Source: Candidatus Limosilactobacillus merdigallinarum
Lineage (GTDB): Bacteria; Bacillota; Bacilli; Lactobacillales; Lactobacillaceae
Reading direction: 5' to 3'
Assembly: GCA_019114515.1 (NCBI GenBank)
Contig: DXFH01000024.1
Location: 1 to 64,000 of the forward strand
DNA: 64,000 nt
Part shown: piece by piece, positions 16,937-21,167 of the stretch
Numbering within the stretch: the first letter of the stretch is position 1
Layout: every line of letters starts with the position of its first letter
Program-made: the position numbers and the translations under genes
Notes under the pieces: model-generated
What the model saw: only the letters and a program-made list of their open reading frames with translations
Database searches by the model: none
Told to the model about the DNA's origin: nothing

Positions 16937-18340
16937 TTAGTTTTGTGGTTGGGGCTTAACTAAACAACCCGCAATAATGCTGAAAATCGTTACCAAGAAC
17001 GGGAAGAAGGCCCATGGGATAAACTTCAGCGGATTGATTTGCAAAGCGGTGGCAATGAAGACGCCGGAAACCGACCACGGCACAATAGCGTTGACCGCAG
17101 CACCGGCATCGTTTAAGACCCGGGTCATGAATTTACGTGGCAGTTTTAGTTGGTCAAAAGAATGGACAAAGGATTGCCCCGGCAAGATGATTGCTAAGTA
17201 GTGTTCACCGACGACCAAGTTCACCCCGATACAAGTAAGGGCAGTGGCAAAAGTCAGCCGCCCCGCGCTCTTAGTAATGCCCGATAAGTGGTCAATGATT
17301 GCGCCAATAATGTTAAAGCGGATTAAGAGGCCACCCAAGGCCAGGGCAAACACGATCAGGGCCAGCGAGGTCAGCATGCTGGCAATGCCACCCTTGGAAA
17401 GCAAGGCATCAATGGTCTTATTCCCGGTATGAGAAACGAAGCCGTTCAGGATTGTTTTAGTGATGGTGCTAATGCTAGTGGATGGTGCGTGCAGCCAACC
17501 TAAGCCCGCTGCAAACAGGGAACTCAGTCCTAATGACGGGATAGCGGGTACTTGCAGGATGGCCAGCACAATCAGCAGCGCTACTGGCAACATTGCCCAG
17601 CCGGAAATCCAAAAGCCATTTTGTAAGCCATTCATCATACGGTGCACGGCGGTTAAACTAACTGATTTGGAATTGAGTCCTAAGAAGGTGTAGACAACCA
17701 TGCAGACCGCCCAGGCCGGGATATCGGTGATTAAGAGAGAACGGATGTGTTCGTAGATACTGATTTCACCCACGCTAGCGGCCAAGTTGGTGGTTCCGGA
17801 TAATGGGGAAATGTTAGAACCACAGAAGGCCCCGGATACGATCACACCGGCAGTGAGGCCAGGATTAATCTTCAAGGTTGCACCGATGCCGATAAAGGCA
17901 ATCCCCATTGTCGAAACCGTGGTAAAGGAACTCCCACAGGCGACTCCCACTAAAGTACAAACCAAGAAAACGGTTGGTAAGAAGAACTTTCCGGAAATAA
18001 TTTTAAAGCCGAAGAACATGATGGTCGGGATGGTACCGGAGAAGATCCAGGTAGCAATTAATACCCCGATGGATAGGAAAATGATCAGGGGGTCAACACC
18101 GGCCCTTAGACCATAACGCATGCCGTCCATGACAGTATCCCAGCTGAAGCCGCGCAGTTTACCGTAAATGGCGAGCAACGTGAAGGCAATGAAGAGGGGT
18201 GCTTGCGGCTGCTGATGCTTGATGATGATTAGGAAACCTAAGATGCATAAGATGACAATTAAGACGATCAGACTTTCACCAAAGCTCAAGTCAGGTTCTG
18301 TTTGTTGTTCATTATTATTTGATTTTTTGAAAATACTCAT
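16937..18340 (-). CDS. nhaC: NhaC-family transporter (annotated Na+/H+ antiporter; candidate tyrosine transporter)
   Basis: A 467-aa polytopic membrane protein with about 11-12 hydrophobic segments, of the NhaC ion-transporter family. Family hallmarks are the GSSFTTVSTMGIAFIGIG and SGAFCGSNISPLSGTTNLAAS segments (about residues 130-185) and the C-terminal LNDAGAAVNAIVPWS. Generic annotation would be Na+/H+ antiporter. Members of this family sit next to tyrosine decarboxylase genes in lactobacilli and enterococci, and some Firmicutes members are under Tyr-specific T-boxes (recollection of comparative surveys). Here the 5' leader encodes a Tyr-rich peptide, so tyrosine or an aromatic amine is a plausible substrate. 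Start ATG at 18340 with AAAGGA upstream. Confidence 0.85.
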   Translation of the reverse strand: MSIFKKSNNNEQQTEPDLSFGESLIVLIVILCILGFLIIIKHQQPQAPLFIAFTLLAIYGKLRGFSWDTVMDGMRYGLRAGVDPLIIFLSIGVLIATWIFSGTIPTIMFFGFKIISGKFFLPTVFLVCTLVGVACGSSFTTVSTMGIAFIGIGATLKINPGLTAGVIVSGAFCGSNISPLSGTTNLAASVGEISIYEHIRSLLITDIPAWAVCMVVYTFLGLNSKSVSLTAVHRMMNGLQNGFWISGWAMLPVALLIVLAILQVPAIPSLGLSSLFAAGLGWLHAPSTSISTITKTILNGFVSHTGNKTIDALLSKGGIASMLTSLALIVFALALGGLLIRFNIIGAIIDHLSGITKSAGRLTFATALTCIGVNLVVGEHYLAIILPGQSFVHSFDQLKLPRKFMTRVLNDAGAAVNAIVPWSVSGVFIATALQINPLKFIPWAFFPFLVTIFSIIAGCLVKPQPQN

Positions 18341-18363
18341 ATTTAATCAATCCTTTAAAATAC

Positions 18364-18407
18364 AAAAACGCCAACTAGACGCAGACATTGGTCAATCTAG
18401 ATGGCGT
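18364..18407 (-). terminator. Attenuator terminator before the NhaC-family gene
   Basis: On the minus strand a 12-position stem with 11 pairs (18407-18396 with 18379-18368, one T-T mismatch) runs into TTTTT (18368-18364), about 24 bases before the start codon. Its 5' arm is also the 3' arm of the alternative antiterminator stem. Confidence 0.88.
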
Positions 18408-18449
18408 GCTTTAACGGACGTGTTCAAATGACCGACCATGCTAGATTGA
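18392..18449 (-). promoter_or_regulatory. Antiterminator stem of the NhaC-family leader
   Basis: Minus-strand bases 18449-18436 pair with 18404-18392: nine contiguous pairs, a one-base bulge (18440) and four more pairs. This uses the 5' arm of the terminator (18407-18396), so the two structures exclude each other. It also excludes the hairpin 18460-18454/18446-18440 (seven pairs), which acts as an anti-antiterminator. Confidence 0.75.
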
Positions 18450-18476
18450 AATCACCTAGCAAAGTCATGCTTAAAT

Positions 18477-18551
18477 ACAACTCTGCTTAGGCGCGAACAT
18501 CTGTGGCCCGCACCTAAGTGGTACCGGCCTACGCGAAATAAGCATAGTTGT
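18477..18551 (-). promoter_or_regulatory. Competing leader stems of the NhaC-family attenuator
   Basis: Two exclusive structures share a 3' arm. Stem 1 pairs the Asp13-Tyr17 codons of the leader peptide (18551-18539) with 18489-18477, 12 of 13 positions. Hairpin A pairs 18518-18509 with 18495-18486, ten pairs with one G-U. Both use 18489-18486, so a ribosome sitting on the leader codons decides which forms. Bases 18491-18485 can also pair with 18460-18455, the arm of the anti-antiterminator. Confidence 0.65.
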
Positions 18552-18588
18552 CATAATACGCACGAGGATTTAAGCTGAATAACTTCAT
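18529..18588 (-). CDS. Tyr-rich 19-aa leader peptide (attenuator)
   Basis: A short frame on the minus strand, ATG at 18588 to TAG at 18529, preceded by AGGAAAGG (18606-18599). The peptide is MKLFSLNPRAYYDNYAYFA: four Tyr in its last nine residues plus two Phe. It is the first well-placed frame after a near-consensus promoter and is followed by competing hairpins and a terminator before the NhaC-family gene. That is the layout of amino-acid leader peptides controlling transcription attenuation. An overlapping frame from the ATG at 18595 gives 14 residues without Tyr enrichment and is less likely to be the working one. Proposed role: ribosome sensing of charged tRNA-Tyr, or nascent-peptide sensing of tyrosine. 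Confidence 0.75.
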   Translation of the reverse strand: MKLFSLNPRAYYDNYAYFA

Positions 18589-18638
18589 TTGACATAGTCC
18601 TTTCCTATTTTGGTTGATTACCTTGATTCGATGGCTTC

Positions 18639-18667
18639 ATTAAAACATTCTCATTTCATGCTGTCAA
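18639..18667 (-). promoter_or_regulatory. Promoter of the NhaC-family leader transcript
   Basis: Minus strand: perfect TTGACA -35 (18667-18662), 17-base spacer, TTTAAT -10 (18644-18639) with TG one base upstream. Predicted start near 18632, giving a leader of about 290 bases before the coding region. Confidence 0.82.
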
Positions 18668-18690
18668 TCCTCATTTTAAATTAATTTCGA

Positions 18691-18721
18691 TATAATACAT
18701 TGTTTTTTGATAACCAATGTA
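18691..18721 (+). promoter_or_regulatory. -10 box and dyad before the PLD/AAA+ gene
   Basis: TATAAT at 18691-18696 with no convincing -35, directly followed by a 7-bp inverted repeat (18696-18702 with 18715-18721, 12-base loop). A dyad at the expected start point is a candidate operator for an unknown regulator. The -10 and dyad are visible; the function is inferred. Confidence 0.4.
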
Positions 18722-18815
18722 AGCGGATTGATGTCAAGGCTTGCAATGCTTATGCAAATATCCGAAAATAGACTACGTATGCATTTATGCTGAAAATAAT
18801 GAGGAGATCAAGCAA

Positions 18816-21167
18816 ATGTCGACTGGAGATCCAGAAAAAGCACAGATTAATGACAAACGAATTCATGTGGTGCATAACCATGAAGACGCGCAAATGTCGA
18901 TTCAAGAGATTTTTGATGCGCAGTCATACCCCCAAATGATCGGGGTCACGGGTCAAATTACGGCTGATTTTATTAACCAATACTTGAGCAGCTTTGTGCA
19001 GGTTGAATTGGCGTTGGGTAATCTGCCAACCAATCAACATTTTCGCAACTTAGAAAACGTGACCAAGGGTGCCTTGGCGACTGCATTACTGAATACTGCT
19101 AATAAAGAAGCCATCAAGCTATTTCAAGGCCTCAGCTCACAGCTACAGCTGACGGCTTTAGCGGGAGTTTTAAAACTCGAAATTGCGCCTACGCAGCTGT
19201 TGCATTCGCGTTTTTACTTATTGGCCAATCCGGTAACCGGCAATACGCGGGTTGTTTTAGGGTCGATTGATTTAACGAAGGACTCATTTGATCCGGATGC
19301 CAATCGTTTCGAAGAGGTACTGATTTTTGATAATGACCCGCTATATGGCAACCTGCTGAATCACTTTAAAGAAGATATTCGTCCAGTTGTTCAGCCATAC
19401 TTTACCAACGAGCTGCTGACAGTGGCGGAAAAACAACTGAAGGCTAACCGGGCAGCTAATGGCAATAATGATAGTGTCATCATCTTATCGAATGAAGAAA
19501 CCGATGAGATTGCCCAGCGAGAAATGATCAACCTGATTGTTGATGACGTGCAGCGGCAGCTAGACAAGCAGCTGTTGGATCCCGAAACTACGCTGGCCAT
19601 GCGTAATGTGACTGCCAACCGTACCCATGACGCAGATATGGAAGAGCGGGCTATTCGGCAGCGGGATACAGTACTGATGCTGGAAAAGGAATCTGTATCG
19701 CCACGGGCTGCACACCCGAAGATCAAGGACCGGGATCAAATTGCTAAACGGGTGACGGATACTTTGCAATCATCCGTCTCACCACAGGACCTGGCAGTGG
19801 AAAAGAAATACACGACCTTCTTATATGACCGGCCACTGGAAAGAAACATTGCCCACAATCAGACGGGACTCTATACGCCTAACGATGCGGGTACTTACCC
19901 AATTCCGTTTGGTAAGCTGGCCACGGTTTCTCAAATCAAGGCCGGTTTGCAGCAGATTGAAGCTGTGATTCGCGGCTACCAACAGTATGTCGTGGACTTC
20001 ACGCCAGAATACGGAAAACGGTACTACGAAGCCATCATGTACGCCTTTACTGCGCCATTTTTGTGGGAGATTCGCCAAAAAGCGAGTTTGAACCCCGAAG
20101 ACGGGAACGACATTCCGAACTTCCTGATCTTGGGTTCCAGTGCCGGGTCAGGAAAATCAACTTTGTTAAGGATTATCAACCAACTAACCTGGAATACCTC
20201 GAAATCCATGATCGACTTCGGGACGATTTATCCGGCAGACGCGCCACAGCGTAAAGCTAAGACAATGCAGGCATTACAGAGCTACATGATGCAAGGGAGT
20301 ACCTATCCTGTATTGGTTGACGAAATCGAACCGTACTTCTTCCATCAGCCGCAATACAGTCGGCGGCTGATCGTTGATACGACTAACGAATTAGTAAACA
20401 GCCCTAAACCAGTGGCACCACTGATTGGGACGACTAACTACAATTCCGGCTTCACCATGCGGCGGGAAACTGCACGGCGGACATATTACCTGCAGTTAGA
20501 CAAGGTCATTGATAGCACTAAGAAGGGCGATGCATCTAAATACATTTACGGCGTCCGCGAGAAAATGGACAATACCTTGTTTAAGGACTTCGTTGTGCGC
20601 CTTGCTAACTACTTAGAAGACGACAGTACGCCATGGCGGATGTTCGATAAGAACACTGGTCAACTGGACTTCTTGGCGATGACTAGGCGGATTTTCCGTT
20701 ATTACTATCAATTAGCAGATATGCCGATTCCGGATTACTTCTCCGATGGTCTTTGCGATGACTTTGGCGAAAATGCGCGGAGCAAGTGGGCTAAACTGTA
20801 CTTGACGCAAAAGAAGGACTTCCTGTTCCGCAAAGACAAGAACAGCTTGCTGTTTGACATTACCAAATTGACGACCTTTAATGGTTTTTCCAATGATTCA
20901 GTCGAAGAGTACCGGAATGCATTGCCGGTTGAGCTCTGTGTTGATGGAATCAACGGTAAAAATGGCAAGTTCGTCGAGATCAAAGCACCGGCATTTTATA
21001 ACTGGATCGGTATCGAGAACCCACAGCTGCAGCCGGTTGCGGATGCTGATAATGACGATCAAGACAAAGATAAAGAAGCAGATGAGAATGATGAAAAACC
21101 GGCAGAAAAACCGCAAAAAGAACCGAAAAAGAAGAAGCGTGGTTTCTGGGCGCGGCTATTTGGTTAA
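18816..21167 (+). CDS. PLD-like domain fused to AAA+ ATPase, unknown function
   Basis: 783 aa. The N-terminal third (about 25-185) looks like one phospholipase-D-type module: HSRFYLLAN at 130-138 then LGSIDLTKDSF, i.e. the HxK...GSxN(L/I)T layout with Arg in place of the catalytic Lys, and only one copy of the motif. A helical linker follows (215-340). The C-terminal part is a P-loop ATPase: Walker A GSSAGSGKST at 440-449, Walker B YPVLVDEIE (Asp502, Glu503), sensor-1 GTTNYN near 540 and an Arg-rich RRETARR. The tail is acidic, then KKKKRGFWARLFG, a likely membrane-binding amphipathic end. Start is set by GAGGAG at 18801-18806; a longer frame opens at 18741. First gene of a six-gene run. Candidate defence, DNA-repair or membrane-remodelling protein; not identified. 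Confidence 0.75.
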   Translation: MSTGDPEKAQINDKRIHVVHNHEDAQMSIQEIFDAQSYPQMIGVTGQITADFINQYLSSFVQVELALGNLPTNQHFRNLENVTKGALATALLNTANKEAIKLFQGLSSQLQLTALAGVLKLEIAPTQLLHSRFYLLANPVTGNTRVVLGSIDLTKDSFDPDANRFEEVLIFDNDPLYGNLLNHFKEDIRPVVQPYFTNELLTVAEKQLKANRAANGNNDSVIILSNEETDEIAQREMINLIVDDVQRQLDKQLLDPETTLAMRNVTANRTHDADMEERAIRQRDTVLMLEKESVSPRAAHPKIKDRDQIAKRVTDTLQSSVSPQDLAVEKKYTTFLYDRPLERNIAHNQTGLYTPNDAGTYPIPFGKLATVSQIKAGLQQIEAVIRGYQQYVVDFTPEYGKRYYEAIMYAFTAPFLWEIRQKASLNPEDGNDIPNFLILGSSAGSGKSTLLRIINQLTWNTSKSMIDFGTIYPADAPQRKAKTMQALQSYMMQGSTYPVLVDEIEPYFFHQPQYSRRLIVDTTNELVNSPKPVAPLIGTTNYNSGFTMRRETARRTYYLQLDKVIDSTKKGDASKYIYGVREKMDNTLFKDFVVRLANYLEDDSTPWRMFDKNTGQLDFLAMTRRIFRYYYQLADMPIPDYFSDGLCDDFGENARSKWAKLYLTQKKDFLFRKDKNSLLFDITKLTTFNGFSNDSVEEYRNALPVELCVDGINGKNGKFVEIKAPAFYNWIGIENPQLQPVADADNDDQDKDKEADENDEKPAEKPQKEPKKKKRGFWARLFG

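Follow-up and report, generated by a model that had tools for sequence, protein, structure and literature searches.

The 64,000-nt stretch of Candidatus Limosilactobacillus merdigallinarum DNA analysed here (the window) carries, before the gene for an NhaC-family transporter, a leader region that we read, with a probability of roughly 0.85, as a ribosome-mediated transcription attenuator that would sense tyrosyl-tRNA supply through the Tyr codons of a short leader peptide. The computation behind this reading yields conserved codons, covarying helices, helices that exclude each other by overlap and, in the mean of 30 leaders, a predicted dependence of the fold on ribosome position. The element is, moreover, quite likely a member of a single family of codon-programmable attenuators spread across the order Lactobacillales, a leader-peptide counterpart of the T-box, of which RF02863 would be an enterococcal branch misfiled as an sRNA. 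In such a family the switch (helices E/A, C, B, D, P, AT, and T) would stay while the codons are swapped and the partner strand compensates, with Tyr codons for nhaC, Ile/Leu/Val codons for ilvA-, ilvB-, ilvE-, and livJ-like genes, and mixed Phe/Tyr/Trp codons for MFS-chorismate mutase, aroE, aroK, chorismate mutase, DAHP synthase, and ABC binding-protein genes.

All parts of the element lie on the minus strand. A sigma-70-type promoter, TTGACA-N17-TTTAAT (18639..18667; -35 at 18667-18662 and -10 at 18644-18639), precedes a ribosome-binding site read from the sequence, AGGAAAGG (18599..18606), and a leader ORF of 19 codons, MKLFSLNPRAYYDNYAYFA (18529..18588), in which codons 11, 12, 15, and 17 are Tyr codons. 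An intrinsic terminator is placed between this ORF and the transporter gene (16937..18340, 467 residues). An earlier note on this DNA had described the promoter, the leader ORF with these four Tyr codons, the alternative stems, and the terminator, and we find each of them where it had been put. The leader RNA is more stable than its shuffled counterparts (folding z = -4.94), none of 200 shuffles being as stable. The transporter scores 155.7 bits against the gathering threshold of 23 for the Pfam model PF03553 and is thus NhaC-type; against TIGR00931 (Na+/H+ antiporter NhaC, equivalog) it reaches 357.5 bits, under the curated cut-off of 370, and a sequence search at E<=0.001 returned no related solved structure. 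The leader codons, together with the accessible text of PMC2494555, suggest that the gene encodes a probable tyrosine transporter. A divergent ORF of 808 residues on the plus strand (18741-21167), which matches no Pfam or NCBIfam model at E<=0.001, lies across the promoter.

Eight helices make up the element. Helix E pairs 18575-18570, within the early leader codons, with 18474-18469 (spanning 18469..18575), and helix A pairs the Tyr-codon region 18551-18539 with 18489-18477 (12 of 13 pairs; spanning 18477..18551). Helix C (18528-18520/18514-18506, spanning 18506..18528) begins directly 3' of the stop codon and shares a central strand with helix B (18518-18509/18495-18486; 9 of 9 counted pairs at 18517-18509/18495-18487), so that only one or the other forms. 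Helix D (18493-18484/18461-18453, spanning 18453..18493) is, by overlap, exclusive with A, B, and P. The last of these, the anti-antiterminator hairpin P (18465-18454/18446-18435; 11 of 12 pairs), has a strand in common with the antiterminator AT (18449-18436/18404-18392, spanning 18392..18449), as does AT with the terminator T (18407-18396/18379-18368 followed by a T run, spanning 18364..18407; 9 of 10 counted pairs at 18406-18397/18378-18369). AT can be seen by eye in the 13-pair register with one bulged C that had been proposed for it, and in the consensus register 18448-18433/18406-18393 it forms 11 of 12 pairs. Helices C and E are additions to the stems listed in the earlier note.

These overlaps suggest the following course of events. 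The leader would be transcribed with a ribosome following the RNA polymerase and translating the 19-codon peptide. When Tyr-tRNA, presumably the cellular readout of tyrosine, is short, the ribosome would wait at Tyr11/12 (or at 15/17) and cover the 5' arm of A, leaving the bases 3' of the stop codon free; C could then form and take the strand that B needs. With C formed, the strand CGCCTAAGCA would be free to form D with TGCTAGGTG, D would block P, and the 3' arm of P would become available for AT, allowing transcription of the gene whose product would take up tyrosine. When Tyr-tRNA is plentiful, the ribosome would reach the stop codon and cover the 5' arm of C; B would form, D would be disfavoured, P would form, and the terminator would be made in place of AT. 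If the leader is not translated, A (with E) or B would hold the CGCCTAAGCA strand and the gene would be OFF.

We searched 50 genomes of the genus and found a relative of the gene in 49. Close orthologues, defined as those with about 77% identity or more (L009-L041, n=33), retain the element in 32 of 33 cases; in 31 of the 33 it was found upstream, L031 having an insert before the gene, and at L028 it sits about 400 nt further upstream. The only close orthologue that lacks it is L032 (G034), whose whole genome is devoid of a match to the family model R1 described later. The DNA 5' of the L032 gene differs and looks coding-like by eye. The inserts that separate the terminator from nhaC measure about 400 nt at L028 (2512-2916, minus strand) and about 200 nt at L031 (1289-1500). 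Loci from the named collection, which include L. secaliphilus, L. kribbianus, L. oris, L. pontis, L. caviae, and L. equigenerosi, carry the element in 13 of 13 cases. A 31-row alignment (A1), in which L028 and L032 were left out, has TTTAAT in 31 of 31 rows, with the -35 hexamer altered or cut off in a few, and GAAAGGA or a near variant as ribosome-binding site in the 31 rows. The first codon of the Tyr doublet is TAT in 27 rows, TAC in 3, and TTC in 1, and the second is TAT in 31 of 31. Counted from the stop codon, position -8 is Tyr in 30 of 30 nhaC leaders, and the last ten residues of these leaders have mean shares of 0.39 Tyr, 0.01 Phe, and 0.00 Trp. In the leaders of L016, L021, and L022 the Tyr doublet is kept and the other Tyr codons are gone. 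With pairwise identities of 0.45-1.0 (median 0.67) the leaders differ widely from one another, and the conservation of the doublet and of the stems is therefore informative. The check that the earlier note had proposed, namely whether orthologues have lost the Tyr codons or the stems, does not overturn the reading.

Covariation was assessed on 30 distinct orthologous leaders against 500 shuffles, which ignore relatedness. In the set A+C+P+T, 93.7% of cells are paired and two-sided changes occur in 17 of 44 pairs; the corresponding figures are 93.3% and 10 of 30 for the set C+D+AT, 90.9% and 4 of 9 for helix B, and 94.4% and 5 of 6 for helix E. Each of these four exceeds 500 of 500 shuffles on covariation score and on cells paired, and sliding the register by 1-3 columns lowers pairing to 18%-48%. 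Two-sided change is seen in one pair or more of each of the eight helices. Taken singly, T has 94.7% of cells paired with 6 of 10 two-sided pairs, and AT has 97.5% and 3 of 8 in its core and 67.5% in its outer four pairs. Helix D, which contains the pairing of 18491-18485 with 18460-18455 suggested in the earlier note, has 97.4% of cells paired, with a two-sided change in only 1 of 9 pairs. In the same orthologue set, the number of pair types in helix B was reached by 41 of 500 shuffles and that of two-sided pairs by 49 of 500. Helices D and C, which are absent from the alignment structure, were assessed in a set of 75 distinct leaders from other genes and genera, where none of the shuffles equals them in score, in paired cells, or in cells with two-sided change; in that set the pair types and two-sided pairs of D were reached by 257 and 240 of 500 shuffles, and the pair types of C by 320 of 500. 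Of 30 prepared stretches, 24 were aligned in A2; the diverged L039 was left out of this alignment and of the folding.

For the effect of ribosome position, each of the 30 leaders was folded minus everything up to the front edge of the ribosome, at every codon and with two footprint sizes. Mean AT is 0.65-0.72 when the A-site stands on Tyr positions 1, 2, or 5 (numbered from the doublet) and 0.60 or 0.39, depending on footprint size, at Tyr position 7. It is about 0.3 well upstream and climbs to 0.61-0.67 over the one or two codons that precede the doublet; a ribosome at the stop codon gives 0.22-0.24 and a ribosome-free leader 0.01. The ON range thus begins one or two codons ahead of the Tyr doublet and not at it. 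Out of 30 leaders, the number with AT above 0.5 is 23-24 when the ribosome stands at the doublet, 6 when it stands at the stop codon, and 0 when there is no ribosome. When the segment from the stop codon to P is shuffled (90 copies), AT is 0.13-0.20 everywhere and the position dependence is gone. Predicted AT is thus highest around the Tyr doublet and low both at the stop codon and on ribosome-free leaders, from which we expect a shortage of tyrosine to turn the gene ON. The earlier proposal of a Tyr-codon leader with a complete attenuator thus draws support from orthologues, from covariation, and from footprint-constrained folding alike.

The opposite polarity would follow if the leader encoded an arrest peptide of the TnaC type, with excess free tyrosine holding the ribosome at the stop codon and causing antitermination when tyrosine is plentiful. 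The sequence of the window itself allows this, because with AT complete its copy reaches an AT of 0.97 with the ribosome at the stop codon, and indeed 0.74-0.97 at all ribosome positions except the start codon (0.06; 0.12 without a ribosome). In the orthologue folding, however, a ribosome at the stop codon blocks C and B forms (mean 0.97; 1.0 in the window's copy), and helix D when first made drops from a mean of 0.93 on either doublet codon to 0.32 (0.42 in the window's copy), while mean AT is 0.22 there as against about 0.7 on the Tyr doublet. In relatives, moreover, Phe/Trp or Ile/Leu/Val codons take the place of the critical ones according to the gene, as described later, which fits decoding rather than the recognition of one particular nascent peptide. 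Of the two polarities that the earlier note had left side by side, a Tyr stall that turns the gene ON is therefore favoured and antitermination from the stop codon is disfavoured, although the window's copy permits AT in that state. We consider an arrest peptide improbable, and we hold it at that level and the attenuator no higher than given above because the window's copy, with AT complete, does not separate the stop codon from the Tyr codons.

Unlike the 30-leader mean, the window's copy separates ribosome positions at the intermediate stage only. When P has just been made, D is predicted at 0.87 with the ribosome at Tyr12 and at 0.93 at Tyr15, whereas P is predicted at 0.83 at Tyr11, 0.86 at Tyr17, and 1.0 at the stop codon. 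In the orthologue mean at this stage P wins wherever the ribosome stands (0.91-0.98); since P beats D there, the decision would have to be kinetic or be made once AT is complete, and we regard a kinetic ON/OFF decision as probable on the basis of these models.

T-boxes and CodY are the regulators usually credited with controlling amino-acid genes in lactic acid bacteria. The earlier note took attenuation by amino-acid leader peptides to be rare in lactobacilli, and this claim of rarity is wrong: the model R1, which was built from 24 leaders of nhaC genes, has matches in 85 of 397 Lactobacillaceae genomes, spread over 17 of 40 genera. The window's genome has a single R1 place even at E<=10. Among the matches listed, we read 76 of the 83 that do not precede nhaC. 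All but one of these 76 leaders are rich in Tyr, Phe, and Trp, with a register from the stop codon that is largely common, the exception being L141, which is without a sound leader call; the genes behind them encode MFS transporters, chorismate mutase, shikimate dehydrogenase, shikimate kinase, and amino-acid permeases. The share of Phe in the last ten leader residues is 0.20 for MFS genes (n=48) versus 0.01 for nhaC (n=30). Folding of the non-nhaC leaders covered 72 loci, L141 being left out along with L086, L101, and L116, which have no terminator call. Mean AT in this set is 0.47 at codon -7 from the stop, 0.22 before it, and 0.29 at the stop codon, a weaker contrast than for nhaC, and even at the best codons AT outcompetes P at only 30 of the 72 loci; a helix-agnostic measure on the 72 loci is noisy, at 0.66 versus 0.52-0.59 by ribosome position and 0.35 without a ribosome.

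Several of these loci deserve mention. An MFS transporter gene under an aromatic leader (L093:2-1411, minus strand), the one MFS gene that was scanned for such a fusion, encodes a C-terminal chorismate mutase domain (PF07690 + PF01817). Two APC permease genes (L089 and L107) stand under the Phe-rich leaders SFFNFAYFM and NFFNFAYFM, and the L089 permease is closest to the branched-chain transporter BcaP (577 bits, below the cut-off of 690); the two may be Phe transporters or exceptions to the match between codons and genes.

A second model, R2, was built from 76 leaders and has matches in 187 of 395 Lactobacillales genomes, spread over 47 of 80 genera; in a class-wide search it matches 24 of 299 genomes, 20 of the 24 in Lactobacillales. 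We read 81 loci of the order and class, chosen among the matches listed, leaving out L162, L164, L166, L167, L170, L171, L179, L181, L183, L186, L193, and L194, several of which are places already among the 76. Aromatic leaders, such as one ending in ...NNYYFSYFR, precede aroE, ABC_sub_bind, and other genes at 70 of the 81 loci; Ile/Leu/Val leaders, such as one ending in ...LIISIIR, precede ilvA-, ilvB-, ilvE-, and livJ-type genes at 10, and one locus has no leader call. The branched-chain amino acid (BCAA) genes match the Pfam families PALP, TPP enzyme, Aminotran_4, and Peripla_BP_6, from which the names IlvA, IlvB, IlvE, and LivJ are inferred.

Codon class and gene class agree throughout. 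We classified 154 of 157 loci (the three others being L141 and L200, for want of a leader call, and L131, for want of a gene call), assigning gene classes by blastp to 15 representatives from the same loci, 14 of them named by Pfam. An aromatic leader stands before a gene outside the BCAA class, which does not equal a proven aromatic gene, at 144 loci and a BCAA leader before a BCAA gene at 10, with 0 mismatches of either kind (Fisher 6.5e-16, relatedness ignored, the ten BCAA cases all coming from family f5). The ABC_sub_bind/SBP genes have putative substrates; one of them has the solved relatives 6hni, 3lkv, and 3lft, which we take to bind aromatic amino acids.

Some further loci found with R2 lie at the edges of this picture. 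At L251 a leader with Phe codons, ending in ...AVFFNSNFR, precedes a gene for a D-isomer 2-hydroxyacid dehydrogenase, perhaps of phenyllactate metabolism, and at L171 an aromatic leader precedes a gene outside the classified set. Within the class Bacilli, R2 also matches outside the order in G865, G892, G901, and G911, and the loci read there have aromatic leaders before an aminotransferase gene (L191), an MFS-like gene (L253), and a DAHP synthase gene (L254). These matches would reflect either horizontal spread or an older origin.

None of the Rfam families matches the element of the window or 11 other loci of the family, and at E<=5 RF02863 in particular finds nothing in 18340-18700. Among 13 order-wide loci, RF02863, "Enterococcus sRNA 2410," matches a single one, L189, which stands before aroE. 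This model matched 12 of 12 chosen R2-positive genomes (11 over the cut-off) and 0 of 14 control genomes, and in 12 of 12 genomes it falls on an R2 place; 15 of its 22 matches coincide with R2 and one does so weakly (E 0.041), the other six being outside the comparison. The transcript could be mainly a trans-acting small RNA, as its enterococcal relative is filed in Rfam, and the accessible text of PMC5593968 describes E. faecium sRNA_2410 as a 195-nt RNA with two transcripts by Northern blot. Yet the loci read have an amino-acid-type gene downstream, a leader ORF, alternative stems, and codons that match the gene class, and a terminated leader would itself show up as a short RNA, so that we rate a trans-acting role as less probable still than an arrest peptide. 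Least probable of all is a leader that senses tRNA or a metabolite with the ORF incidental: T-boxes are in use in the window's genome, where 5 of the 19 matches at E<=0.001 pass the Rfam cut-off, but none is present here, the Tyr doublet is conserved with synonymous change between TAT and TAC, and across gene classes the RNA is constant whereas the class of codons follows the gene.

The T-box model RF00230 finds nothing in the window, nor in 18340-18700 with the threshold relaxed to E<=5; this agrees with the earlier remark that no T-box is present, and a T-box at this locus is rejected on these searches. The statement that Tyr genes normally use T-boxes is nevertheless right for related genes, both in the accessible text of PMC2494555 and in our set. 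Before four more distant relatives, L042-L045 (68-71% identity), which are probably orthologues, T-boxes stand instead of the element (E 1e-9 to 3e-15, under Rfam's cut-off), and a 43%-identical paralogue in the window's genome also has a T-box. The specifier of the T-boxes at L042-L045 and L049 reads TAC (Tyr) by eye. Neither T-box nor leader element can be seen by eye at L046-L048 (58-61% identity). Within the NhaC gene family, control by tyrosine thus appears to have switched between tRNA sensing and leader-peptide sensing, in one direction or the other. At three of the four loci L042-L045 a small ORF with adjacent Tyr codons (...NRYYC..., ...NRYYYRR..., and ...KGYYF...) is seen by eye behind the T-box, possibly a second tyrosine-sensing step in addition to the T-box. 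A 41%-identical nhaC paralogue (L050, L051, and L055) has another leader upstream, e.g., MIQVFSKATSYQRYL in L051, with a B-like hairpin and a terminator by eye; R2 matches weakly at L051 (E 0.025) and L055 (E 0.026) and not at L050.

Because this leader-peptide family is so wide, membership in it gives many transporters of putative specificity a regulatory input and a likely substrate class, and an enterococcal "sRNA" that had been an orphan finds a possible explanation. The family also forms a natural series of exchanged codons in one RNA switch, in which the way attenuator specificity evolves can be put to a direct test.

Attenuators of this kind are known, but the family, its Tyr/NhaC member, and the exchange of codons across genes apparently are not described in the literature covered, in which we found no account of this leader family and from which subscription journals were largely absent. 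The accessible text of a 2005 list by Merino (PMC1173090, Table 7) has a predicted attenuator before an aro operon of Lactobacillus plantarum, accompanied by further putative attenuators of aromatic operons in Enterococcus, Lactococcus, and Streptococcus; a leader peptide, an RNA family, or an NhaC gene is not described in that portion. RF02863 is filed as an sRNA, shares its places with R2, and has no match in the window, and a terminated leader could appear as the Northern pattern given for E. faecium sRNA 2410 (PMC5593968, as far as its accessible text goes). The leu-phe leader RF01743, which matches in Lactococcus lactis, has no match in the window and matches 0 of 18 genomes of the relatives and 0 of 295 genomes of the order, and identity with it is rejected. 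His leader attenuators have been proposed in Firmicutes, according to the accessible parts of PMC9413887 and PMC2965389; like the attenuator proposed here they are leader-peptide attenuators in place of T-boxes, and by description they differ in having His codons and in occurring in Bacillus, Eubacteriales, and Erysipelotrichales. For BCAA genes, ribosome-mediated attenuation is an established mechanism in Firmicutes, with S. aureus and others reviewed in PMC6123439 (accessible text). In Listeria monocytogenes, the accessible text of PMC5864092 presents Rli60 as a ribosome-mediated attenuator of ilv-leu which, like the window element, is a Firmicute leader peptide with regulatory codons, in a short RNA of about 200 nt; when mutation abolishes translation of the leader, less of the downstream region is transcribed. 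By description, Rli60 responds to BCAA with a 13-residue peptide and two alternative hairpins, whereas the window element has Tyr codons and a longer C/B/D/P chain. The Tyr T-boxes that the accessible text of PMC2494555 lists before NhaC-family genes share with the window element the gene family, transcription antitermination, and presumably the signal, uncharged tRNA-Tyr, and differ from it in sensing the tRNA directly, with no leader peptide, where the element described here would sense it through a translating ribosome.
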